This document shows positions 2,082 through 14,743 of a stretch of 14,743 bases of DNA, piece by piece. Below the pieces are notes generated by a model. It had not been told where the DNA came from and ran no database searches. It was given only the letters and a program-made list of their open reading frames with translations. The number at the start of each line of letters is the position of its first letter. Within the stretch, counting starts at the first letter, position 1. The position numbers and the translations under genes were made by a program. Where the stretch lies: contig NZ_JOOA01000003.1 of NCBI RefSeq assembly GCF_000712055.1, positions 1 to 14,743 on the forward strand. Reading direction: 5' to 3'. The DNA comes from Ruminococcus sp. HUN007. Its GTDB lineage: Bacteria > Bacillota > Clostridia > Oscillospirales > Ruminococcaceae.

Positions 2082-2195
2082 AAGGAAACACTGATTTAAA
2101 CCCGGAAATACGGCGAAGCCGTATTTCCGGTTGTGGAAGATTGCGGGATTTCGCCCCGTGCCCCACGCTGATTTATGAATAAATCAGTGGTTTCT
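2082..2195 (+). repeat. Palindromic intergenic repeat, copy A
   Basis: Starts 15 bases after the SufB/D-like stop. The ends are inverted (AAGGAAACACTGATTT and AAATCAGTGGTTTCT). Inside are stem 1, GGAAATACGGC with GCCGTATTTCC; stem 2 around GCGGGATTTCGCCCCG, closed by GTGG/CCAC; and stem 3, CGCTGATTTAT with ATAAATCAGTG. The intrinsic terminator at 2201 follows five bases after it. No coding capacity. Confidence 0.85.
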
Positions 2196-2200
2196 ACAAT

Positions 2201-2231
2201 AAAAAACGTCTGCGTATGCAGACGTTTTTTT
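2201..2231 (+). terminator. Intrinsic terminator of the SUF locus
   Basis: Perfect 13-bp stem AAAAAACGTCTGC / GCAGACGTTTTTT with loop GTAT, followed by a T-run. The A-run on the other side makes it potentially bidirectional. Confidence 0.9.
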
Positions 2232-2298
2232 AAGGCATCCGCGGTAAGCTTTTTGCTAACCGTCATTTCCCTGAAGTCACCAAAAAGGAGCAGATATA

Positions 2299-2806
2299 TT
2301 GAAAAACCAGAAAACTTGCGGAGATGTCCATGCTTGCGGCTCTTGCACTTTATTATTTTTATAGTCGAATCACGAATACCGACGCTGGCTCCCATACGGG
2401 AATGAAGCTTGGTCTTGCCAATATAATCACCGTATATGCGGTGTACCGCTTTAAACCATCCGAGGCAAGCCATGATACTTGCAGTCAGACTTGTCTTGGG
2501 ATCAGTGTTTTGCCGGTAATCTTTCCGGCACTTATGTACAGTGCGGCCGGAGGCGGTCTTGCTGCCCTTGCCCGGAATGATTTTTTATGCGAAAGATAAT
2601 TCCCGAAAAGAATATGTATCTTGCCAGTGCAGCCGGAGCGGTATTTTCACAAACACCGGTCCAGATACTTGCTGCCTGCCTGATAATGCGTTCTTTCCGC
2701 GGTGTTTTTCTACTTACCCTTTTCTCATAGTTTTCAGGTATCATCGCAGGGCCTGTTTACCGGCTTCTGCGCCATGTTCGTGATAAAGCGTCTGAAACGC
2801 TGTTGA
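2299..2806 (+). CDS. Gx transporter / heptaprenyl diphosphate synthase component I family membrane protein (frameshifted)
   Basis: Integral membrane protein of the Hpre_diP_synt_I (Gx transporter) family, related to small-molecule uptake S-components; the component I name is historical. TTG 2299 follows AAAGGAG (2284-2290) at 8 bases; TGA is at 2804-2806. Across shifts it reads MKNQKTAEMSMLAALAL, then SYIESRIP, then the family hallmark GMKLGLANIITVYAVYRF (about 2398-2452), then LAVRLVLGSVLFGNLSGT, YSAAGG, and finally FLIVSGIIAGLFTGFCAMF near the C-terminus. Stretches of apolar residues indicate about five membrane segments. The length of about 170 residues fits the family. It stands alone here, with no prenyl synthase component II or ECF ATPase beside it, and a terminator separates it from the SUF genes. 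Confidence 0.8.
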
Positions 2807-2856
2807 AATGATATCTTTATAGTTGCTATAAATGAAATATAGCGAAAGGCTGTTTT

Positions 2857-2872
2857 AATCAGCGTTTCCTTA
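2857..2872 (-). repeat. Solitary end of the palindromic repeat
   Basis: AATCAGCGTTTCCTTA matches the outer end of the palindromic repeat in inverted orientation relative to copy A (with TTTT before it, as in other copies). None of the internal stem-loops is present. Together with the outer end of copy A it flanks the Gx transporter gene. Confidence 0.6.
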
Positions 2873-2885
2873 AAATACTCTTACT

Positions 2886-2920
2886 GCAGTGAACGTAAAA
2901 ATCTGTTTTGCGTTCACTGC
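2886..2920 (+). promoter_or_regulatory. Hairpin in the potassium-channel leader
   Basis: Perfect 10-bp stem GCAGTGAACG / CGTTCACTGC with a 15-base loop, 22 bases upstream of the channel start. There is no clean T-run after it, so it is not a standard terminator; it could be an mRNA leader structure or a weak terminator for the upstream gene. Confidence 0.5.
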
Positions 2921-2942
2921 TGATTTCGTTACAGGAGGAAAG

Positions 2943-3946
2943 ATGAAAAAACACATTTTCCGGATTAATTCAGATAGGCAGCAAGGAGGATCTGCCAAAG
3001 CAGGCCTGTTTTTTGGACTATTTCATAGTTACGTGCATAATCCTTAACATAACTGTTTGCGTTCCTTTATACATTCAGTGAGCTGAGCGCTTTTTACGGT
3101 CTGTTCAGGATAATTGAAACACTTACAGTTGGTGTATTCATACTGGAGTACGGCCTTCGTCTGTGGACGGCTGACCAGCTGTATCCTGAAAAGAACAAAG
3201 GAAAATCAGTTCTTGAGGTTCCTTTTATCATTCGACGGCATCATCGATTTTTCTGACGATCCTTCCGTTTTTCTTCCTTTCGGGATTCATCGTGTTCCGA
3301 ATGCTCAGAGTCGTAAAGAATATTCAGACTGTTCAGGGGTAAAAATTCGCAGTATGACTCATTTTCAAGTATTAATAAACTTACCGGTTTTATTTGAAAA
3401 AAAAAAAAAAAGAAGGAATCAGATCCTTTCTTCACTTTTTATTTAATTGTTTCATTCTCTCATGCTTGCTTCATCACTCGGCATATACAATGCTGAGCAC
3501 GAAGCTCAGCCGGATGTCTACAGAAACGCATTTTCCGGTATATGGTGGAGCGTTTTCCACCACTTCTTACCGTAGGGCTACGGTGACATTTATCCTGTGA
3601 CGACAGCGGGAAGGATAATCGCAATTTTTCAGTGCATTTCTCGGAGTCGGGGCAGTAGCTTATCCCTACCGGTATCATCAGTGGCCGGATTTGTTGAACC
3701 AGTATACGAAAAAAGCAGTATTCGGACATTAAATTTCAAAAGATATCAAAGAGATCGGCGAAAATTATAGCTGACAGAACGAACGGAAACTTGAAGGCCA
3801 TTACTGTCGGACAGGCAAAAGAAGATTTTTTGATCTTCATATCTACGTTGTTATCCGTGATGATCTGACGCTTATGGCGTCCGACGGTCTGCTGATAAAG
3901 GCCGGAGACGTGGTGGTTGCCGGTTTCAAAGAAAATAGTAAAATAA
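2943..3946 (+). CDS. Voltage-gated-type potassium channel (ion transporter family, frameshifted)
   Basis: Tetrameric membrane ion channel with six membrane segments. ATG 2943 follows ACAGGAGGAA; TAA is at 3944-3946; about 330 residues. Across shifts: S1 (FIVTCIILNITVCVL), S2 region (FRIIETLTVGVFILEYGLRLW), S3, then S4 with spaced arginines (FRMLRVVRIFRLFR, about 3296-3340). A lysine-rich S4-S5 linker is encoded by 15 consecutive A (3397-3411), followed by S5 (SSLFIVLILMLASSLGIY) and the pore with selectivity filter TVGYGD at 3569-3587, interrupted by one extra G in 3575-3577. After S6 comes a cytosolic tail of about 80 residues. Its end (VVIRDDLTLMASDGLLIKAG) resembles the TrkA/RCK C-terminal ligand-binding fold; that resemblance is inference. 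TVGYGD predicts K+ selectivity. Confidence 0.88.
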
Positions 3947-3956
3947 GTTGTTGTTT

Positions 3957-4072
3957 AAGCGACACACTGATTAAAACGGAAATCCGGCCTTCGCCGGATT
4001 TCCGGAGGTGAGATTTGCGGGACTTCGCCCCGGACCCTCACGCCTGATTTATTCATAAATCAGCGTTTCCTC
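3957..4072 (+). repeat. Palindromic intergenic repeat, copy B
   Basis: Begins about 10 bases after the channel stop. Ends are AAGCGACACACTGATT and AATCAGCGTTTCCTCA. Stem 1 is GGAAATCCGGC / GCCGGATTTCC, stem 2 surrounds GCGGGACTTCGCCCCG, and stem 3 is CTGATTTAT / ATAAATCAG. Same orientation as copy A, and again an intrinsic terminator follows within a few bases. Confidence 0.85.
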
Positions 4073-4075
4073 AGG

Positions 4076-4113
4076 AAAGCGGCTGCGTTTTTTTTGATGC
4101 AGCCGCTTTTTCT
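4076..4113 (+). terminator. Intrinsic terminator after the potassium channel
   Basis: AAAGCGGCTGC (4076-4086) pairs with GCAGCCGCTTT (4099-4109), followed by TTTTCT. The loop is T-rich. Confidence 0.9.
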
Positions 4114-4127
4114 CCGCGTATGCTCTA

Positions 4128-4156
4128 TTGACTTTTATAGTATAAAATGATAAAAT
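4128..4156 (+). promoter_or_regulatory. Sigma-A promoter for thyX
   Basis: TTGACT (4128-4133), 17-base spacer, TAAAAT (4151-4156). It lies just after the upstream terminator and about 35 bases before the ThyX start. Confidence 0.7.
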
Positions 4157-4191
4157 TATTAAGGAATATTGTTTTGGGAGATGTATAGGTT

Positions 4192-4994
4192 TTGAAAGTA
4201 AACCTTATAGCCCATACTCCTGATCCGGAAAGAATTATTGCTACTGCTGCAAAGCTTTGCTATTCCCCGAGCGGACTATCATGTCGCTGAAGGAAGGAAC
4301 TTACCGATGAAAAGGTGGAAAGCTTTTGTATCAATGCTCATAAGGCATCGGGACACGAGAGCGTTTCTAGAGCATGTCAGCTTTACTTTCGGCATTGAGG
4401 GTATATCAAGGGCGTGTTCGCATCAGGCTTGTAAGACACAGAATAGCGTCATATTCACAGAAAAGCCAGCGCCTATGTAAATGAAGACGGATTTGACTTC
4501 ATAACACCGCCGGAAATTTGCGGCTGTTCCTGAAGCAAAAGCTGAGTTTGACAGGGCAGATGGAAGCACTTACTGAGAGTTATAACAGGGATCGCTGATA
4601 TTCTCACTGAAAATCATAAAAAGACTTTTATGGAACAGGGCTTTGACGAAAAGGAAAGCCGCATCCAGAAGCAAGAAAAAAAGCTAATGAAGATGCGCGT
4701 TTTTGTACTTCCGAATGCGTGCGAGACCAAGATGTGGTTACGATGAAACGTCAGAAGTCTTTTGAATTTCTTCAGGCACCGCTGCTGCTGCCAGAGCACA
4801 GTGGGGAAATAAAGGGATGGTTTGCCAGATGAAATGCTGAAACTCTGCTGCGAAGCCGCGCCGAATGTGTTTAGGAAAAAGCCGGTCCTTCATGCTATTC
4901 CGAGGGCAAATGTCCTGAAGGGAAGATGACCTGCGGAAAATACGCTGAAGTAAAAGATTTTTACAGCAGACTGCACTCAGATAACAAAGCTTAG
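4192..4994 (+). CDS. thyX: Flavin-dependent thymidylate synthase ThyX (frameshifted)
   Basis: Makes dTMP from dUMP using FAD, NADPH and methylene-tetrahydrofolate, releasing tetrahydrofolate. TTG 4192 is the first in-frame start after GGGAG (4177-4181); TAG is at 4992-4994. It starts [20 protein letters not shown]. The diagnostic ThyX motif RHRxxSxxxxSxR is seen as [13 protein letters not shown] at 4434-4472, preceded by [19 protein letters not shown]. The second half reads [32 protein letters not shown], then [18 protein letters not shown] (near 4735-4790), and ends with [20 protein letters not shown]. About 265 residues, with several single-base shifts. It has its own promoter and terminates inside a palindromic repeat. 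No thyA is visible. Confidence 0.92.
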
Positions 4995-5109
4995 GGGAAA
5001 CGCTGATTTCTCATTAAATCAGCGTGAGGGTTCGGGGGCGAAGCCCCGCAAATCCCACCTCCGTAAATCCGGCGGAAGCCGGATTTACGGTTTTGATCAG
5101 CGTTTCCCT
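4993..5109 (-). repeat. Palindromic intergenic repeat, copy C (inverted)
   Basis: Overlaps the last bases of the ThyX stop codon and ends 17 bases before the DJ-1 family start. Orientation is opposite to copies A and B. Read on the minus strand, stem 1 is CCGTAAATCCGGC / GCCGGATTTACGG, stem 2 surrounds GCGGGGCTTCGCCCCCG, and stem 3 is CGCTGATTT / AAATCAGCG. No terminator follows on the plus strand, so thyX transcripts could run into the next operon. Confidence 0.85.
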
Positions 5110-5126
5110 GGAAAAGAAGGTTTAAT

Positions 5127-5695
5127 ATGGTTTTACGTTTTTTCTCGCTGACGGCTTTTGAAAGAGATCGAAAGCCCTTACAGTAAGTTGATTCTTTGCA
5201 GAAGAAGCCGGAATTGATGTTTAAAAACAGTCGGTATCGGAAGGGAAGCTATTCCGCGGGTTCACACGGTATACTTGTTCAGGCCGACGTTAAGGACACA
5301 GGACTTCGCTCCGGACGCTGAAACAGAAATGATTCGTGCTTCCGGGCGGAATGCCGGGAACAAAGAATCTTGAGGCTTCTGACACAGTTTCAGAAGGCGA
5401 TTGGACTTCTGCGTTACCAACAATAAATATGTGGCTGCTATATGTGCAGCTCCGTCCATTCTCGGACACAGAGGACTTCTCAGGGGACACAAGGCACTCT
5501 GCTATGCCGGTTTTGAAAAGCCAGCTAGAAGGTGCTGAAATCGCCTACGGAACAGTATGTCTTTCAGGCAGCTTCCTCACATCAAGAGGTCCGGGGAACA
5601 GCTGTCGACTTTTCAACTCAAGATCGTTGAGATCTTAAAGTCAAGGGAGATAAGTGAAGCACTGGCTTCATCACTTTCTTTACACAAGCCGATGA
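5127..5695 (+). CDS. DJ-1/PfpI family protein (frameshifted)
   Basis: Glutamine-amidotransferase-like flavodoxin-fold protein; family members act in glyoxal or methylglyoxal damage handling or redox sensing, and the exact role here is not known. ATG 5127 follows AGAAGG; TGA is at 5693-5695. Across shifts it reads VFLADGFEEIEAL at the start, then AEEAGIDVKTVGIG, SHGILVQADV, the conserved LPGGMPGTKNLEASD (about 5338-5382), and CAAPSILGHRGLL with the nucleophile-elbow Cys at 5443-5445. The C-terminal half (YAGFESQLEGAEIAYG, then SRGPGTAVDFSLKIVEIL) is characteristic of the DJ-1 branch. About 185 residues, the family norm. The stop overlaps the next start as ATGA, which indicates translational coupling. 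Sequence from about 5373 on is repeated in the right arm. Confidence 0.88.
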
Positions 5696-6278
5696 TGACA
5701 GATAAACTGCTTTTCAGAAAAACAGGCGCTTAAAATGCGTTCCGAACTTTTTTCCTTCTGCAGAAAAAAAGAAAGAGGCAGATCTTAAGATCCTTGAAAA
5801 ACCTCGTAAACGCAGATCTTATCAGGAAAGCAGAAATCGTCCCTTACCTATGTTTCATACAGAGATGAAGCAGATACTTTAAAACTTATAGAATATCTTT
5901 TGTCAGAAGGCATCAGTACTGCCCGTTCCCCGCTGCAGAAAGCAGGGAGAGATGGACTTTTTCATGATAAAAAAGTTTTGAGGATTTAAAACCTTCTTTC
6001 ATGGGAATACCGGAGCCGGAATATGACGAGACCCGACTGGTTCGTAATTTTACCGGTGCTCTCTGTATCGTTCCGGGAACAAGCCTTTGATCTTAAGGGA
6101 AACCGGTACAGGTTACGGCGGAGGATATTACGACAGGTTTTTAAGCCGTGAAAAGGACGTAACACCGGCAGGAATCTGCTACAGCCCGCTTGTCTTTGAT
6201 GAGGTACCTTCAGAACCTCACGATGTAAGCGTTGACTATATAATAACAGAGAAAGGAATAATAGATATCAATGGATAA
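5692..6278 (+). CDS. 5-formyltetrahydrofolate cyclo-ligase (frameshifted)
   Basis: Converts 5-formyl-THF to 5,10-methenyl-THF with ATP, returning stored folate to the active pool. ATG 5692 overlaps the upstream TGA (a second ATG follows at 5695); TAA is at 6276-6278. It begins [20 protein letters not shown]. The N-terminal half has basic and helical segments, then [18 protein letters not shown] and the [12 protein letters not shown] region. The signature [11 protein letters not shown] is at 6111-6143, followed by [19 protein letters not shown] and [15 protein letters not shown]. The length of about 195 residues is typical. The gene overlaps the MltG start by eight bases. Single-base shifts occur before 6080; the last 63 codons are clean. 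Confidence 0.92.
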
Positions 6279-7601
6279 TCAGAAAGATGAAAACGGTCCA
6301 GGAAAGAAATAAAAGACCTGCTTCGTCCCGGAAACAAGCCAAAAGGCACGTTTTCAGGATTTATGAAGGCATTTCTTGCACCTGCACCGCCTCCGAAGAA
6401 GAAAAGACCTTCAAAGGTGATCCGATATATCAGACCTAAGAAAGGAAACCGTATAGCAATAAGCCTTGTGTTTATTTCGCTATACTCAGTGTATCAGTAC
6501 TCTCATCTATAGGAATAATATTCTTAGCCAGAGAATTTCTCCGGTATAGACAAGAGTGGCGGCTACCTACATTGTAAAATATTCCGGAAAAACGCAACGA
6601 CTGATGGACGTTATCAGAATAATGACTGTTGATCAGGAGAAGAACAGGAAGGAACCTATTATCAAGGTCGATAAAATGTTCAGGATCCTCGCTGACCTTT
6701 CAGGAGAGACGAAACGAAGAACCTATAGAGTATGTTTCCGGCAACCCACAATCTGCGTCCTAATATGGGGTTATCAGGATATTCTCGAGGAACTGCAGAG
6801 TACATATTATATCGAAAAAGGAAAACTGTAACAATAACCATCAGGGAAGGCATGCGCCTGAGAGCGGTTGCCAAGCTGCTCGAAGATGAAGGTGTCTGTG
6901 CTGCGGACAAGTTTATATACTACTTCAACGCAGGACTTGAAGACTACGAACTTTATAAATAATATTCCGCAGCCTACAGCCAACGATCTGCGTTTTGACC
7001 GGAATGGAAGGATATCTCTTCCCTGATACCTACGAATTCTACAAGGCCCCGGACGGCGATGTCAAGGTGCTTGAGGAACAGGATTATGAGATCATTCTCA
7101 GAACTATCTATGAGAACTTTGAAGCCAAGTATGATGACGAGATGAAGAAAAGAGCGGGCTGAAGTCGGTATGACAATGGACAAGGTCGTTACACTTGCAT
7201 CAATCGTACAGCTTGAAGCTGCAAATACAGCTGACATGAAAAATGTTGCCTCAGTATTTATGAACCGTCTTAATGACTATGAACGGTTCCCGGCTCTTGA
7301 ATCAAACCCTACAACCGAATACAGCATTTATCTCAAGAGTCTTGATGATTATTCCGTTACTTCAAAAATGCTGAAAGCATATGATACATACCAGACAAAC
7401 GGACTCCCGCCGGGAACCGATATGCAGCCCTGGTCTTGATGCTATGAAGGCTGTACTCTGGCCTAACAATACAAATTACTATTACTTCTGTGCTAACGTT
7501 GAAACAAAGGAAGTATACTATGCTGAAAACTAACGAACAGCATGAAGAAAAACCTTATCAAGGCCGGAATTGATATTAACGACCTTGATTATGATGACTG
7601 A
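6271..7601 (+). CDS. mltG: Endolytic transglycosylase MltG (frameshifted)
   Basis: Membrane-anchored murein lytic transglycosylase that cleaves nascent glycan strands and limits their length. ATG 6271 overlaps the end of the folate gene; TGA is at 7599-7601; about 440 residues. A basic, proline-rich cytoplasmic head (APAPPPKKKRPSKVIRYI) is followed by one membrane segment (ISLVFIFAILSVSVLSSIGI, about 6450-6520). Next come a LysM-like part (EETVTITIREGMRLRAVAKLL), the family motif EGYLFPDTYEF at 7007-7039, and the catalytic region LASIVQLEA with the conserved Glu at 7215-7217. Then VFMNRL, NGLPPGP and YYYFCANVETKEVYYAETN. Several indels break this copy; the right-arm copy is cleaner in the N-terminal half. 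The position directly before a U32 peptidase matches the Bacillus yrrL-yrrO neighbourhood. Confidence 0.93.
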
Positions 7602-7624
7602 CCGATCAGATAATAAGTAAAGAA

Positions 7625-7658
7625 AAAGCACCGGATATGATTCATGTCCGGTGTTTTT
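7625..7658 (+). terminator. Intrinsic terminator after mltG
   Basis: Stem CACCGGATATGA / TCATGTCCGGTG (one G-U pair) with AAAAAG before and TTTTT after. It lies between mltG and the U32 peptidase gene, so the latter may depend on read-through or on its own promoter. Confidence 0.85.
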
Positions 7659-7702
7659 GGAGAAAAACGCAGTGTTTCCACAGAATAACGGAGGTTTTGA
7701 AT

Positions 7703-8965
7703 TTGGAATTAGAGGTACTTGCGCCGGCCAGGGGACCGCCGAAAGACTTTTATCAGCACTTAACTACGGCGCCGATGCCGTTTATCTCGGAAGAAAACAG
7801 TTCGGTATGAGAGCTTCATCCGGCCAATTTTGATTTTGAAGGACTTAAGGAAGCAGTAAAGGCTTTCCCACGACAAGGGCGTGGAAGGTGTTCCTTACCT
7901 GCAACACTCTTCCGAGAAATAATGAGATACCGCTTTTTGAACAGTTTGTACGTGAAGCTGTTGAAGCCGGGGTGGATGCACTTATCGCTGCCGATCTCGG
8001 AATAATCTCGCTCATTAAGAAATATGCACCTGACATGGTGATACACCGCTTCCACACAGACAGGTATCGTAAACTATGTTACAGCAAACGAACTTTATAA
8101 CATGGGATGCAAACGAGTAGTTCTTGCCCGTGAGCTGTCACTTGATGAAATAGCTGAGATACGTGCCAGGACTCCTAAGGATCTTGAAATCGAGTGCTTC
8201 GTTCACGGTGCTAATGTGCGTTTCATTCTCGGGACGCTGTCTGCTTTTCAAGTTACCTTGTAAACCGTGATGCCAACAGGGGAGAATGTGCACAGCCGTG
8301 CCGCTGGGGATATCATCTTCAGGAGGAAAAAAGGCCTAATGAGTTCTATCCTGTTTTCGAGGACGAGCAGGGAACATACATTCTCAATGCCAAGGACATG
8401 TCGATGATAGAACACATCGACAAGCTTCGTGAAGCAGGTATATACAGTCCTCAAGATCGGAGGGAAGGGCAAAGTCCAGCCTACTACGTTTCAGTGGTTA
8501 CAAACGCCTACAGAAATGGCTGTGGGACTGCTGCCTGAAGGGTGAGCCTGTACCGCAGTGGGTTTATGACGAGGTATTCAAGGTAAGCCACAGAAAGTAC
8601 TGTACCGGAATTTTTCTTCGGACATCCGAAGGACAGTCAGTTACTATGAGACGGGCGGGTTACATAAGGGAATATGACGTTGTGGCTGTTGTTGATGAAT
8701 GCCGTGACGGAAGGCTCTATGCCACACAGCGAAACAAGTTCCTTGCAGGAGATACGCTTGAAGTATTCTCGCCGGGAAAGGAACCGCAGATCATCAAAGC
8801 TGATGTGATCTACAACGAAAAAAGATGAGTCAGTTGAGAGTGGCGAACCACGCAATGATGAAGTTTTTCGATACCGTGCGAAAAGGAATTCCCGAAGGAT
8901 GCAATAATCCGAATGCAGAAAACAGTAATAATATCAGGACGAAAAAAATCAGGTCACATGATTGA
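7703..8965 (+). CDS. trhP: U32 family peptidase, TrhP-type tRNA hydroxylation protein (frameshifted)
   Basis: Members of this branch (E. coli TrhP/YegQ, Bacillus YrrO) are needed for 5-hydroxyuridine at the tRNA wobble position; they are named peptidases only historically. TTG 7703 follows GGAGG (7690-7694) at eight bases; another TTG at 7697 is too close. It reads LELEVLAPAGDRERLLSALN, GADAVYLGRKQFGMRASSGN, then KGVKVFLTCNTLPRN and FVREAVEAGVDALIAADLG. The U32 signature follows as ECFVHGAMCVSFSGRCLLSS (about 8191-8250), then NRGECAQPCRWGY, YILNAKDMSMIEHIDKLREA and the C-terminal beta domain (NKFLAGDTLEVFSPGKEP, about 8730-8783). About 420 residues, the long form. The 3' end is uncertain: the frame drifts into the terminator, and the likeliest stop is TGA 8963-8965 or TAA 8926-8928 after one lost base. 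Confidence 0.88.
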
Positions 8966-8987
8966 TCATGTGCCTGATTCTTTTTTT
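8942..8987. terminator. Bidirectional terminator between convergent genes
   Basis: ATCAGGTCACATGAT (8948-8962) and ATCATGTGCCTGAT (8965-8978) form a long stem with an A-run on the left and a T-run on the right. It serves the U32 gene on plus and the ATP-binding gene on minus. Confidence 0.9.
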
Positions 8988-9008
8988 GAAATTTTTTTAG
9001 AATATATT

Positions 9009-9453
9009 TTAACTGAGATAAATTTCAAAACGTACTGTTGTACCGCAGCCAAGTTCAGTTTCTATTTCGAAACTGTCGGTATTTTTTCTGATCTTTGAAA
9101 AATCCCTGTCCGTTGCCAAGGCCCCGGGCTCTGATCTCGGAATCAGGAAGAGCGGTAGTAATAACCGTCGTTCATAGCCATTTTCAGGATCGGCAATACC
9201 CGGTCCGTTGGTCCGCTGCTTCCACCCTGAGTAACATCCGGTGGTGATTCTCAACATCAATAAGGCCGCCGTTAGCATGTATTATCATGTTGAGTTCTGT
9301 TTCGTATACAGCAAGTGGTGGCTTTTTACGGATAATTTCATTATTGATGTTCATTTCAGAGAGTTTTGTTTTTATGTCTTCTGAAAACAGCTCCGGCATT
9401 TAGAAAATCAATTAGGTGTTACAATATAATGATAGTTTGGTTTCAGGATTCAT
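9009..9453 (-). CDS. RsbW-like anti-sigma regulatory ATP-binding protein (frameshifted)
   Basis: Single-domain GHKL (HATPase) protein related to serine kinase/anti-sigma factors such as RsbW and SpoIIAB; it would act in cytoplasmic partner switching, partner unknown. The best start is ATG 9453, giving MNPETKLSYIVTPNDFLNAG behind GGGAGG. A later ATG at 9399 would drop a conserved N-terminal strand. The N box is YETELNMIIHANGG, the G1 box DQGPGIADPE, the G2 box region RGLGNGQG, and the end FEIETELGCGTTVRFEIYLS, with TAA 9011-9009. About 148 residues. Conserved Glu, Asn and His of the N box are present, so ATP binding is expected. It has its own promoter and ends at the shared terminator. Its frame is broken near 9170-9240 and elsewhere; the right-arm copy at 10669-11115 resolves these. 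Confidence 0.82.
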
Positions 9454-9494
9454 TCTTTTTTCGATAACCTCCCTGCTTTTTCTTTCTAATATAT

Positions 9495-9523
9495 ATTATA
9501 CCATAATACAAGAGAAAAGTAAA
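9495..9523 (-). promoter_or_regulatory. Sigma-A promoter of the RsbW-like gene
   Basis: On the minus strand TTTACT (9523-9518), 17-base spacer, TATAAT (9500-9495), about 42 bases from the start at 9453. The palindrome AAAGCGCTTT (9521-9530) overlaps the -35 box and matches the core of a CcpA cre site. Confidence 0.75.
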
Positions 9524-9624
9524 GCGCTTTTTTGTGTATTTTGTTCAAATAATGTTTGTGATAATATTATTGTTTTTTAGTCCTGATTTTCTGATATAAA
9601 TTATAGTATACGTGAAAATGAATG
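9524..9624. other. AT-rich divergent intergenic region
   Basis: Lies between the RsbW-like promoter and repeat copy D. It contains the perfect palindrome ATAATATTAT (9561-9570). A plus-strand promoter for the dehydrogenase should be here; TGATTT followed 17 bases later by TATACG (near 9585-9612) is the only weak candidate seen. Confidence 0.4.
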
Positions 9625-9740
9625 TTAAGGAAACACTGATTAAACGGAAATCCGGCTTCAACGTATTTCCAAAGGTGGGTATTTCCCGGGACTTTGCCCC
9701 GGAGCCTCACGCTGATTTATGATAAATCAGCGTTTCCTTA
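9625..9740 (+). repeat. Palindromic intergenic repeat, copy D
   Basis: Ends are TTAAGGAAACACTGATT and AATCAGCGTTTCCTTAA, an almost perfect terminal inversion. Stem 1 is partly decayed (GGAAATCCGGC faces ACGTATTTCC), and the mirror copy shows the same change, so it is not a read error. It sits in the 5' leader of the dehydrogenase, 16 bases before its ATG, unlike copies A to C which follow genes. Confidence 0.85.
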
Positions 9741-9756
9741 AGGGGAGGATTATGAT

Positions 9757-9994
9757 ATGACAGCACTTATCACCGGAGCGAGTACAGGGATCGGCGCTGC
9801 GGATATGGCGCGAATCTATCTTCAGCCCAGCTCTTGGATAATGATCTTATTCTTGTGGCAAGAAAGCAGAGACAAGCTGCTTAAACTGAAAAAACTTCTT
9901 CCCCTGTAAGGGTAAAAGGTAATCGCAAGCAGATCTTTCTGATCCGAAAATGCAAAAAGAGTATATTATGTAATAAGACCGGAGTTTTCAAGAT
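9757..9994 (+). CDS. Short-chain dehydrogenase/reductase, N-terminal part, cut by the fold-back
   Basis: NAD(P)-dependent oxidoreductase, substrate unknown. ATG 9757 follows GGGGAGG; it opens MTALITGASTGIGAA, with the TGxxxGIG Rossmann dinucleotide loop. After that this arm shifts frame repeatedly; helix and strand content can be followed (LGYDLILVARSRDKLLKLK, PVRVKVIAADLSDPE). Homology with the other arm stops near 9994, where the read turns back. The missing continuation (NNAG and later) is read on the minus strand at 9995-10145. The catalytic YxxxK is not in the window. Confidence 0.85.
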
Positions 9995-10144
9995 GCCAAG
10001 ATCTCCGGTAAAAAAAAGCTTTGAAAGTATATGAAGTGCTGTAACATTAAGATTAATAAGGTTCAGCTCTTTTTCAAGTGAAGTTTTTCTCAAAAGGACC
10101 TACTTCACCAAATTCCTGCGTTGTTTACCAGAAGATCGGACTCT
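9995..10144. other. Unpaired turn of the fold-back
   Basis: About 150 bases between the two arms with no counterpart on the left. Coding on minus (dehydrogenase). The turn itself falls in a small inverted motif, CCGGAG (near 9979-9984) and CTCCGG (near 10003-10008), which makes the exact junction ambiguous by some bases. Confidence 0.75.
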
Positions 10145-10364
10145 GAAACTCCGGCATACATAATAATACTCTTTTTTGCATTTTCCGGATCAGAAAGATC
10201 TGCTGCGATTACCTTTACCCTTACAGGAAGAAGCTTTTTTCAGTTTAAGCAGCTTTGTCTCTGCTTCTTGCCACAAAGAAATAAGATCATATCCAAGAGT
10301 GCTGAGATAGATCGCCATATCGCGGCCCGATCCCTGTACTCGCTCCGGTGATAAGTGCTGTCAT
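9995..10364 (-). CDS. Short-chain dehydrogenase/reductase, second reading, longer but incomplete
   Basis: Same gene as at 9757, read on the opposite strand; ATG is at 10364-10362. It extends about 50 codons further than the left reading: after the Rossmann part come DLLVNNAGFGEVGPFEKTSL (about 10143-10084), including the SDR motif NNAG, and ELNLINLNVTALHILSKLFL (about 10074-10014), the usual alpha-4/beta-5 region, ending PEIL where the turn occurs. No Ser-Tyr-Lys catalytic residues are reached. The stretch 9995-10144 has no partner in the left arm. The left arm stops about 150 bases earlier. Confidence 0.82.
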
Positions 10365-10379
10365 ATCATAATCCTCCCC

Positions 10380-10499
10380 TTAAGGAAACGCTGATTTAAT
10401 TCATAAATCAGCGTGAGGCTCCGGGGCAAAGTCCCGGAAAATACCACCTTTGGAAATACGTTTGAAGCCGGATTTCCGGTTTAATCAGTGTTTCCTTAA
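10380..10499 (-). repeat. Palindromic intergenic repeat, copy D, second reading
   Basis: Mirror of 9625-9740. It supports the ends AAGGAAACGCTGATTT and TTTAATCAGTGTTTCCTTA and confirms the altered stem 1. Confidence 0.85.
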
Positions 10500-10597
10500 C
10501 ATTCATTTTCACGTATACTATAATTATATCAGAAAATCAGACTAAAAAACAATAATATTATCACAAACATTATTGAACAAAATACACAAAAAGGCGC

Positions 10598-10627
10598 TTT
10601 ACTTTTCTCTTTGTATTATGGTATAAA
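10598..10627 (+). promoter_or_regulatory. RsbW-like promoter, second reading
   Basis: TTTACT 10598-10603 and TATAAA 10622-10627; the spacer is 18 here because of one extra T compared with the left arm (17). The cre-like palindrome reads GGCGCTTT in this arm, with one altered base. Confidence 0.65.
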
Positions 10628-10668
10628 TATATATAGAAGAAAAAGCAGGGAGGGTTATCGAAAAAAGA

Positions 10669-11115
10669 ATGAATCCTGAAACCAAAAACTATCATATATT
10701 GTAACACCTAATGATTTTCCTAAATGCCGGAGCCTGTTTCAGAAGACATAAAAACAAAACTCTCTGAAATGAACATCAATAAATGAAATTATCCGTAAAG
10801 CCACACTTGCTGTATACGAAACAGAACTCAACATGATAATACATGCTAACGGCGGCGCTTAATTGGATGTTGAGATCACACCGGATGTACTCAGGGTGGA
10901 AAGCAGCGGACCAACGGACCGGGTATTGCCCGATCCTGAAATGGCTATGAACGACGGTTATACTACCGTCTCTCCTGATTCCCGAGATCAGAGCCCGGGG
11001 CCTTGGCAAACGGACAGGGATTTTCAAAGATCAGAAAAAATACCGACAGTTTCGAAAATAGAAACTGAACTTGGCTGCGGTACAACAGTAACGTTTTGAA
11101 ATTTATCTCAGTTAA
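10669..11115 (+). CDS. RsbW-like anti-sigma regulatory ATP-binding protein, second reading
   Basis: Mirror of 9453-9009. ATG 10669 begins MNPETK. This arm clearly reads the middle of the domain: LDVEITPDVLRVE, then DPEMAMNDGY, and FEIETELGCGTTV in shifted frames. One extra A in the GTAACG codon near 11091 creates a premature TGA; the left arm lacks it and gives TTVRFEIYLS. The true stop is TAA 11113-11115. Confidence 0.8.
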
Positions 11116-11137
11116 AATATATTCTAAAAAAAAATTC

Positions 11138-11183
11138 AAAAAAAGAATCAGGCACATGATCAATCATGTGACCTGATTTTTTT
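11138..11183. terminator. Bidirectional terminator, second reading
   Basis: Mirror of 8942-8987: ATCAGGCACATGAT and ATCATGTGACCTGAT with flanking A-run and T-run. Confidence 0.85.
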
Positions 11184-12428
11184 CGTCCTGATATTATTAC
11201 TGTTTCCTGCATTCGGATTATTGCATCCTTCGGGAATTCCTTTTCGCACGGTATCGAAAAACTTCATCATTGCGTGGTTTCGCACTCTCAAACTGACTCC
11301 ATCTTTTTTCGTTGTAAGATCACATCAGCTTTTGATGATCTGGCGGTTCCTTTTCCGGCGAGAATACTTCAAGCGTATCTCCTGCAAGGAACTTGTTTCG
11401 CTGTGTGGCATAGAGCCTTCCGTCACGGCATTCATCAACAACACAGCCACAACGTCATATTCCCTTATGTAACCGCCCGTCTCATAGTACTGAACTGTCC
11501 TTGCGGATGTCCGAAGAAAAAATCCGTACAGTACTTTCTGTGGCTTACCTTGAATACCTCGTCATAAACCCCACTGCGGTAGCAGGCCTCACCCTTCCAG
11601 GCGCAGCAGTCCACAGCCATTCTGTAGGCGTTTGTAACCACTGAAACGTAGTAGGCTGACTTTGCCCTTCCCTCGATCTTGAGACTGTATATACCTGCTT
11701 CACGAAGCTTGTCCCATGTGGTTCTATCATCGACATGTCCTTGGCATTGAGAATGTATGTTCCCTGCTCGTCCTCGAAAAACAGGATAGAACTCATTAGG
11801 CCTTTTTTCCTCCTGAAGATGATATCCCCAGCGGCACGGCTGTGCACATTCTCCCCTGTTGGCATCACGGTTTTACAAGGTAACTTGAAAGCAGACAGCG
11901 TCCCCGAGAATGAAACGCACATAGCACCGTGAACGAAGCACTCGATTTCAAGATCCTTAGGAGTCCTGGCACGTATCTCAGCTATTTCATCAAGTGACAG
12001 CTCACGGGCAAGAACTACTCGTTTGCATCCCATGTTATAAAGTTCGTTTGCTGTAACATAGTTTACGATACCTGTCTGTGTGGAAGCGTGTATCACCATG
12101 TCAGGTGCATATTTCTTTAATGAGCGAGATTATTCCGAGATCGGCAGCGATAAGTGCATCCACCCCGGCTTCAACAGCTTCACGTACAAACTGTTCAAAA
12201 AGCGGTATCTCATTATTTCTCGGAAGAGTGTTGCAGGTAAGGAACACCTTCACGCCCTTGTCGTGGGAAAGCTTTACTGCTTCCTTAAGTCCTTCAAAAT
12301 CAAAATTGCCGGATGAAGCTCTCATACCGAACTGTTTTTCTTCCGAGATAAACGGCATCGGCGCCGTAGTTAAGTGCTGATAAAAGTCTTTCGCGGTCCC
12401 CTGCCGGCGCAAGTACCTCTAATTCCAA
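11160..12428 (-). CDS. trhP: U32 family peptidase (TrhP-type), second reading
   Basis: Mirror of 7703-8965; TTG start at 12428-12426 with CCTCC (the GGAGG complement) at 12437-12441. This arm has a 184-residue uninterrupted stretch (12099-11545 on minus), the best reading of the middle: VIHASTQTGIVNYVTANELY, CKRVVLARELSLDEIAEIRA, and ECFVHGAMCVSFSG of the U32 signature. It then shifts at a GGGGAC run before the next cysteine. Combining both arms gives the complete signature with all cysteines. The stop suffers the same uncertainty as on the left (TGA 11162-11160 or a TAA near 11200). Confidence 0.87.
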
Positions 12429-12470
12429 ATTCAAAACCTCCGTTATTCTGTGGAAAACACTGCGTTTTCC

Positions 12471-12506
12471 AAAAACACCGGACATGAATCATATCCGGTG
12501 CTTTTT
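12471..12506 (-). terminator. Terminator after mltG, second reading
   Basis: Mirror of 7625-7658: CACCGGACATGA / TCATATCCGGTG with flanking A-run and T-run. Confidence 0.85.
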
Positions 12507-12527
12507 CTTTACTTATTATCTGATCGG

Positions 12528-13848
12528 TCAGTCATCATAATCAAGGTCGTTAATATCAATTCCGGCCTTGATAAGGTTTTCTTCATGCTGTTCGTTAGTT
12601 TCAGCATAGTATACTTCCTTTGTTTCAACGTTAGCACAGAAGTAATAGTAATTTGTATTGTTAGGCCAGAGTACAGCCTTCATAGCATCAAGACCAGGGC
12701 CTGCATATCGGTCCCGGCGGGAGTCCGTTTGTCTGGTATGTATCATATGCTTTCAGCATTTTTGAAGTAACGGAATAATCATCAAGACTCTTGAGATAAA
12801 TGCTGTATTCGGTTGTAGGGTTTGATTCAAGAGCCGGGAACCGTTCATAGTCATTAAGACGGTTTCATAAATACTGAGGCAACATTTTTCATGTCAGCTG
12901 TATTTGCAGCTTCAAGCTGTACGATTGATGCAAGTGTAACGACCTTGTCCATTGTCATACCGACTTCAGCCGCTCTTTTCTTCATCTCGTCATCATACTT
13001 GGCTTCAAAGTTCTCATAGATAGTTCTGAGAATGATCTCATAATCCTGTTCCTCAAGCACCTTGACATCGCCGTCCGGGGCCTTGTAGAATTCGTAGGTA
13101 TCAGGGAAGAGATATCCTTCCATTCGGTCAAAACGCAGATCGTTGGCTGTAGGCTGCGGAAATATTATTTATAAAGTCGTAGTCTTCAAGTCCTGCGTTG
13201 AAGTAGTATATAAACTTGTCCGCAGCACAGACACCTTCATCTTCGAGCAGCTTGGCAACCGCTCTCAGGCGCATGCCTTCCCTGATGGTTATTGTTACAG
13301 TTTCCTTTTCGATATAATATGTACTCTGCAGTTCCTCGAGAATATCCTGATAACCCATATTAGGACGCAGATTGTGGTTGCCGGAAACATACTCTATAGG
13401 TTCTTCGTTTCGTCTCTCCTGAAGGTCAGCGAGGATCCTGAACATTTTATCGACCTTGATAATAGGTTCCTTCCTGTTCTTCTCCTGATCAACAGTCATT
13501 ATTCTGATAACGTCATCAGTCGTTGCGTTTTCCGGAATATTTACAATGTAGGTAGCCGCACTCTTGTCTATACCGAGAAATTCTCTGGCTAAGAATATTA
13601 TTCCTATAGATGAGAGTACTGATACACTGAGTATAGCGAAAATAAACACAAGGCTTATTGCTATACGGTTTCCTTTCTTAGGTCTGATATATCGGATCAC
13701 CTTTGAAGGTCTTTTCTTTCTTCGGAGGCGGGTGCAGGTGCAAGAAATGCCTTTCATAAATCCTGAAAACGTGCCTTTTGGCTTGTTTCCGGACGAAGCA
13801 GGTCTTTTATTTCTTTCCTGACCGTTTTCATCTTTCTGATTATCCCAT
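12528..13848 (-). CDS. mltG: Endolytic transglycosylase MltG, second reading
   Basis: Mirror of 6271-7601; ATG 13848-13846, TGA 12530-12528. Here 209 residues are uninterrupted (13757-13128), covering the basic head, the membrane segment SLVFIFAILSVSVLSSIGII, then AATYIVNIPENATTDDVIRI and TVTITIREGMRLRAVAKLLE. A second open stretch (13123-12854) holds EGYLFPDTYEF and ASIVQLEA with the conserved catalytic Glu. The C-terminal 70 residues are in a third open stretch. This is the better copy for building the true protein. Confidence 0.92.
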
Positions 13849-14429
13849 TGATATCTATTATTCCTTTCTCTGTTTATTATATAGTCAACGCTTACATCGT
13901 GAGGTTCTGAAGGTACCTCATCAAAGACAAGCGGGCTGTAGCAGATTCCCTGCCGGTGTTACGTCCTTTTTCACGGCTTAAAAACCTGTCGTAATATCCT
14001 CCGCCGTAACCTGTACGGTTTCCCTTAAGATCAAAGGCTGTTCCCGGAACGATACAGAGAGCACCGGTAAAATTACGAACCAGTCGGGGTCTCGTCATAT
14101 TCCGGCTCCGGTATTCCCATGAAAGAAGGTTTAAAATCCTCAAAACTTTTTATCATGAAAAAGTCCATCTCTCCCTGCTTTCTGCAGCGGGGAACGGCAG
14201 TACTGATGCCTTCTGACAAAAGATATTCTATAAGTTTTAAAGTATCTGCTTCATCTCTGTATGAAACACATAGGTAAGGACGATTTTCTGCTTTCCTGAT
14301 AAGATCTGCGTTTACGAGGTTTTTCAAGGATCTTAAGATCTGCCTCTTTCTTTTTTCTTGCAGAAGGAAAAAGTTTCGGAACGCATTTTAAGCGCCTGTT
14401 TTCTGAAAAGCAGTTTTATCTGTCATCAT
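13840..14429 (-). CDS. 5-formyltetrahydrofolate cyclo-ligase, second reading
   Basis: Mirror of 5692-6278; ATG 14429-14427, TAA 13842-13840. [11 protein letters not shown] is seen at about 14011-13979. This arm has an extra G in the GGGATAA end, so the last codons shift; the left arm gives GIIDING. It keeps [20 protein letters not shown] and [20 protein letters not shown] intact, which the left arm breaks. Confidence 0.9.
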
Positions 14430-14743
14430 CGGCTTGTGTAAAGAAGTGATGAAGCCAGTGCTTCACTTATCTCCCTTGACTTTAAGATCTCAACGATCTT
14501 GAGTGAAAAGTCGACAGCTGTTCCCGGACCTCTTGATGTGAGGAAGCTGCCTGAAAGACATACTGTTCCGTAGGCGATTTCAGCACCTTCTAGCTGGCTT
14601 TCAAAACCGGCATAGCAGAGTGCCTTGTGTCCCCTGAGAAGTCCTCTGTGTCCGAGAATGGACGGAGCTGCACATATAGCAGCCACATATTTATTGTTGG
14701 TAACGCAGAAGTCAATCGCCTTCTGAACTGTGTCAGAAGCCTC
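14426..14743 (-). CDS. DJ-1/PfpI family protein, second reading, 5' part outside the window
   Basis: Mirror of 5373-5695; TGA 14428-14426. This copy is essentially clean and gives the C-terminal 100 residues: AAICAAPSILGHRGLLRGHK with the conserved Cys at 14674-14672, then ESQLEGAEIAYGTVCLSGSF and GTAVDFSLKIVEILKSREIS. The gene runs off the right edge. Confidence 0.88.
   Translation of the reverse strand, partial: EASDTVQKAIDFCVTNNKYVAAICAAPSILGHRGLLRGHKALCYAGFESQLEGAEIAYGTVCLSGSFLTSRGPGTAVDFSLKIVEILKSREISEALASSLLYTSR

Follow-up and report, generated by a model that had tools for sequence, protein, structure and literature searches.

An abundant intergenic MITE with IS5-type ends and YTAR target duplications in Ruminococcus sp. 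HUN007 and close relatives

Insertion sequences (IS) of the IS5 group have ends starting with GG and a 4-bp YTAR target, and RUP elements are IS630-related, with TA target duplications. Among the MITEs, MITEPsy1 of Pseudomonas syringae pv. phaseolicola is, according to the accessible parts of its description, an element of 100 nt that contains no CDS and is present in six copies (PMC3189936). Its ends start with GGAA and are close to those of ISPsy2, a member of the IS5 family, and it shows a 4-nt duplication at CTAG or YTAA. In the same source it is reported to transpose in vivo, likely via the ISPsy2 transposase (PMC3189936). The repeat described here is very probably an element of the same kind: a MITE of the IS5 group of about 109 bp, moved in trans by an IS5-type transposase.

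The window analyzed here (14,743 nucleotides) is the whole contig C3 of a 4.2-Mb genome in four contigs. An earlier note, made from its sequence, had listed four full copies of a palindromic repeat in both orientations. A search model derived from 27 copies of the genome that lie outside the window gave five strong matches (Table 1), among which all four listed copies proved genuine, each about 113 bp long; the list had missed the match at 10382-10497 and the solo right end at 2857-2870. The 14-base end AATCAGYGTTTCCT, with at most two mismatches, occurs ten times in the window, against 0.33 expected and a maximum of three in 200 shuffles, and the folding of six strands is far more stable than that of shuffles (z -5.15 to -8.55). 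The four copies and the solo right end are also present in the polished contigs, where the flanking 4-mers are still identical in one copy out of four (C1:923618). With gene names assigned by eye from the translations, copy 1 lies directly downstream of a SufB/SufD-like gene and copy 2 downstream of an ion-channel-like gene. In the C1 version of copy 3, the TAG stop of a ThyX-like gene falls within the left 4-mer; the C2 version has an extra A and the ThyX-like frame ends earlier.

Table 1. Features located in the window, with the corresponding strong matches of the search model.
Feature	Position	Strand	Strong model match	Basis and remarks
MITE copy 1	2082..2195	+	2082-2194 (+)	polished C2:3249412-3249519; flanking 4-mers differ
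Solo right end AATCAGCGTTTCCT, truncated copy or remnant	2857..2870	+		end-pattern match, polished contigs
MITE copy 2	3957..4072	+	3961-4071 (+)	polished C2:3251206-3251314; flanks TTAA/TCAG
MITE copy 3	4993..5109	-	4996-5108 (-)	polished C2:3252215; left 4-mer TTAG
Artefactual inverted repeat, 9.4 kb	5372..14743	none		self-alignment and mapping to C1
MITE copy 4	9625..9740	+	9627-9739 (+)	polished C1:923618-923726; intact TTAA/TTAA duplication
Mirror image of copy 4, second fold-back arm	10382..10497	-	10382-10497 (-)	not an independent copy

Our analysis flags contig C3 itself as redundant and artefactual. Both arms of its inverted repeat map to one stretch of C1 (about C1:923.2-927.9 kb), with 230 and 87 gap positions and just 9 and 5 mismatches. 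An unpolished long read that folds back on itself would give arms of this gap-rich, mismatch-poor kind, and because of the many indels many genes in this part of the window are frameshifted. The ends of C1 and C2 overlap each other over 3.8 kb (98.9%), and C3 duplicates these ends and adds no extra sequence.

The consensus was derived from 160 distinct full-length sequences, 82 and 28 of them from two relatives and 50 from the own genome, a few of the latter being one locus read from two overlapping contigs. It measures about 109 bp (113 bp when one 4-bp copy of the target is included), has 13-bp terminal inverted repeats and, as had been claimed for the window copies, contains no transposase gene. 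Its left end is GGAAACACTGATT; the interior holds the GC-rich hairpin 1 (GGAAATCCGG/CCGGATTTCC) and hairpin 2 (CGGGG/CCCCG), and the right end AATCAGCGTTTCC is preceded by its own inverted copy, resulting in hairpin 3. Shorter forms of 73-92 bp are also present. In the 160 copies, doubly compensated cells number 45 for hairpin 1 (shuffles: mean 3.0, maximum 9), beside 39 that are broken and 6 that are single-sided, counts in which inherited subfamilies are included many times over. Double changes elsewhere number two in hairpin 2 (shuffles up to 3), two in hairpin 3 (up to 2) and five in the end-to-end pairing (up to 8). In the consensus, hairpin 1 lacks a following U-run and is thus not an ordinary terminator, and no Rfam match at gathering thresholds was found in the window.

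A transposase gene bounded by the same ends, which the earlier note had proposed to look for, is present elsewhere in the genome. There are 30 loci with PF01609, of which 11 are bounded by MITE-type ends (GGAAACRCTGATT type) and 19 are not. The IS is 1,224 bp long, with ten full-length copies at most one base from the reference and one further copy of 1,225 bp, and its transposase of 331 aa scores 306.9 bits against NCBIfam transpos_IS5_4 (cut-off 140). The flanking 4-mers are identical at 10 of the 11 loci (TTAG, CTAA, CTAG), the exception being TTAG/CTAG. Two loci, L048 (G000:C2:749818-750811) and L047 (C2:3172518-3173510), share their flanks, so that there are at most ten independent loci; one of the two has a 1-bp length change and a broken transposase frame, and the pair represents either a duplicated locus or one copy that stems from the assembly. 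Over the first 19 bases, the left end of the MITE agrees with that of the IS at 17, and the right end of the MITE matches the left and right ends of the IS at 17/18 and 15/18 positions, respectively. Beyond these ends, the interior hairpins of the MITE have no match in the IS. Larger units with such ends and equal 4-mers, among the loci scanned, were limited to the IS and one neighbouring MITE pair (L096). Three IS copies lie close together at G000:C2:2774-2781 kb (L044-L046), two of them parted by TTAG alone, a layout that suggests that the IS inserts beside itself at the YTAR it creates. By eye, a TTGACA-17-TATAAT promoter can be seen in the left end of the IS at L040, upstream of the transposase gene.

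We also checked the ends at loci of related transposases obtained from a family search. Similar ends flank three loci from other genera at 63-65% identity (L257, L258, L265), although for L258 the 4-mers differ (TTAG/ATAG) and for L257 the right end falls at the contig end. At 48% identity, a Pseudomonas aeruginosa plasmid (L273) has similar ends with a CTAG/CTAG duplication; a Hydrogenophilus plasmid (L272, 50%) shows a looser likeness, and no end pair was found at L259 and L260 (58-60%). Among ten loci at 42-44% identity, a different end (GGCAATACCGCA type) is seen at nine, and the remaining locus yielded no end. The GGAAACRCTGATT-type end is thus typical of part of the IS5 family. The remark that the sequence could not be recognized was fair for the interior, but ends of this kind also bound IS5-type elements elsewhere.

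Target duplications are observed for the MITE as for the IS, and the two share the 4-bp YTAR motif. Flanking 4-mers are identical in 19/34 end pairs of the own sample (shuffles: mean 5.3, maximum 11) and in 63/98 end pairs, drawn from 80 of 103 loci, of the relatives (mean 17.1, maximum 27); they are unequal in the other 15/34 and 35/98. The target 4-mers are TTAA, TTAG, CTAA and CTAG, and also ATAA. A TA target duplication was rejected, as the paired flanks show 4 bp. In two places (L109:3032-3252 and L131:2766-2984) two MITEs lie end to end with 3-4 bp between them, and look as if the next copy had used the target site at the end of the other.

Empty sites in related species, another check proposed at the outset, were found for five distinct insertions, and the mobile, MITE-like character suggested for the repeat is borne out by this polymorphism between related species. 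Among 53 cross-species comparisons (156 distinct sites), several of them reciprocal, 27 sites were filled, 6 empty (the five insertions; junction offset of at most 6 bp) and 20 other (rearranged, partial or ambiguous), with filled sites over-represented since the loci in relatives were picked for holding a copy. The clearest empty sites are L013 vs L139 (599 bp, 93.8%, no gap, with TGAA in place of TTAA), L116 vs L031 (441 bp, 95.5%), L121 vs L194 (598 bp, 87.6%) and L118 vs L127 (600 bp, 91.8%). The sixth comparison, L013 vs L147, is weak, with a left flank at 61%.

Further copies of the MITE are spread across the sampled parts of the polished contigs, which disposes of the concern that the window might hold the only ones. 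A 15-base end pattern with at most one mismatch matched the genome 147 + 146 times, the ends of the IS and the redundant contig included, and the reversed control gave 0 matches. In an 800-kb sample, 73 model matches were obtained at E 0.01 or better, of which 32 were near-full (at least 64 bits and at least 91 model positions), or one per 25 kb; the others are partial or degenerate copies and secondary palindrome matches. Extrapolated from this sample, the genome holds roughly 170 near-full copies. The earlier estimate of hundreds per genome has the correct order of magnitude only if degenerate and partial copies are counted, and the four copies within 7.7 kb, real as they are, form a local cluster.

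Within the genus, the MITE was matched in 5/11 genomes and is dense in three (the own genome, G004 and G008), with two matches each in G002 and G005. In G001, of the same genus, none of 40 scored candidates (74 at first look) matched; these are perhaps another repeat family. At the family level, where the two best candidates per genome were scored, 4/297 genomes matched, all in the same genus (1/126 genera). An exact 29-base pattern was found in 103 stretches among 84,980 species genomes (a set that may lack the records of the own genome), all in two MAGs, RUG13497 (uncultured Ruminococcus sp.) and RGIG2815 (Oscillospiraceae, goat omasum). Neither of these wider collections yielded the MITE in another genus, blastn of one copy against phages and plasmids gave no match at E 1e-3, and the 29-base pattern had no exact match in viral contigs.

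The MITE copies probably differ in age from the IS. Among 47 own loci, the median pairwise identity is 89% and the lowest 49%; 4 of 1081 pairs reach at least 99%, and one pair is identical. This divergence greatly exceeds that among the IS copies, and most MITEs are therefore probably older than the present IS burst. Neither G004 nor G008, both equally dense in MITEs, yielded the IS transposase, though fragmented assemblies may lose multicopy 1.2-kb repeats; G002 holds a transposase fragment at 70% identity. The simplest mover of most copies is probably an earlier IS5 relative with the same ends; from sequence comparison, we infer that the present IS transposase can mobilize the MITE as well. 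In such a mechanism, the IS5-type transposase would come from a full-length element that shares these ends; it would bind the GGAAACRCTGATT termini of the MITE and join the MITE to a 4-bp YTAR target that becomes duplicated. As YTAR contains TAA/TAG, insertion at a stop codon would duplicate the stop and could leave the gene intact, and together with selection against insertion within genes this would fit the presence of copies at gene ends.

The apparently greater age of the MITEs and the two dense genomes without a detected IS copy would also fit movement by an unrelated transposase (IS630/RUP/Correia-like or Tn3-like), with the likeness of the ends to the IS5 element due to chance. We consider this very unlikely: the duplications are of 4-bp YTAR as for the IS, rather than TA, in other genera IS5-type transposases are likewise accompanied by similar ends, in one case with a CTAG/CTAG duplication, and the match of the ends over 17-19 bases together with the shared duplications largely refutes it. 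An IS630 origin in particular was rejected, since there is no DDE_3 transposase match in the genome and the duplication is 4-bp YTAR. That the density of the repeat is an artefact of a chimeric contig has next to no probability. The window is indeed an unpolished fold-back, but the copies in polished contigs and in two independent MAGs refute this for all but the copy at 10382-10497. The shared ends, the matching duplications, the empty sites and the location between genes are demonstrated, and trans-mobilization by IS5-type transposases, in line with the movement in trans that the earlier note had thought probable, is the best explanation of the family.

This location raises a different alternative, in which the repeat was once mobile and is now kept as RNA hairpins in 3'-UTRs (acting in mRNA processing or stability), with a benefit for the host conserving the shared sites. 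With genes called by a simple codon-usage script, and gene boundaries therefore approximate, 38/40 sample copies lie outside genes (21 tandem, 9 convergent, 8 divergent); the two in-gene copies are unoriented hits, and six unoriented hits (both included) were dropped, leaving 34 for the distance tests. Of these, 29 face the 3' end of a gene, 21 of the 29 within 60 bp, vs 14% of unmatched intergenic YTAR sites, a difference that favors a role at gene ends, as do the compensation in hairpin 1 and the copies at the same site in 27/53 cross-species comparisons. The bias is weaker when matched within the same gap (p = 0.059, 24 copies), however, and both the shared sites and the compensated cells are inflated, by the choice of loci and by the repeated counting of subfamilies. 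Palindrome correction in replication would yield the same compensation pattern, hairpins 2 and 3 show few double changes, and hairpin 1 is no ordinary terminator. In five copies the stop codon overlaps the target 4-mer, an arrangement that copy 3 of the window exemplifies; the control for this overlap left out gene-overlapping sites and is not valid. Taken together, an RNA role of the hairpin is possible, and its maintenance for the benefit of the host is an unlikely account of the family. Slightly less likely is the broader idea that, within one Ruminococcus-like lineage, the family now serves genome-wide as RNA elements at 3' ends. Insertion at YTAR sites with stop codons would then supply mRNA ends with a conserved, compensating hairpin while leaving the genes undisrupted, and, if true, a single processing or stability signal, dispersed by an IS5 transposase, would be common to hundreds of transcripts.

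Our data show that ends, target duplication and empty sites can lead from a dense family of bacterial repeats, its origin unknown at first, to a partner IS. With ten near-identical full-length IS copies and roughly 170 MITEs, the genome would be a good natural system for tests of trans-mobilization, and whether the compensated hairpin plays a role at gene ends is a question open to testing.

The repeat is related to IS5-group insertion sequences by transposase family, by ends starting with GG and by the 4-bp YTAR target; unlike them, it lacks a transposase gene and carries GC-rich hairpins of its own. The initial comparison was with ERIC, BOX or RUP elements, in size and layout. ERIC, Correia and RUP are, in the parts of the source available, also short intergenic repeats of tens to hundreds of copies (PMC10969869). 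The 4-bp YTAR duplication and the IS5 partner set the present repeat apart from these by description, and place it with the IS5-group MITEs rather than with RUP. Neither the TA duplication nor the IS630-type transposase of RUP/IS630-type MITEs was found. MITECca01 of Cardinium, as far as the consulted text describes it, is likewise lineage-specific, mostly intergenic and of high copy number (169), with an intact parental IS in the genome; it differs in length (~240 bp) and in its parent, of the IS982 family (PMC9769881). No earlier description of the present MITE appeared in the literature among the matches listed. It is short, has terminal inverted repeats, and has ends in common with an autonomous IS5-family element in its genome, with the same YTAR duplication and with empty sites. 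Thus, the repeat is an apparently undescribed member of the IS5-group MITEs, with MITEPsy1 as the closest precedent. It differs from MITEPsy1, on the available text, in its end sequence (GGAAGGTCTGAAAAAGCC in MITEPsy1), in its copy number and in its distant host; both are small, have no CDS and combine IS5-family ends with a 4-nt duplication (PMC3189936).
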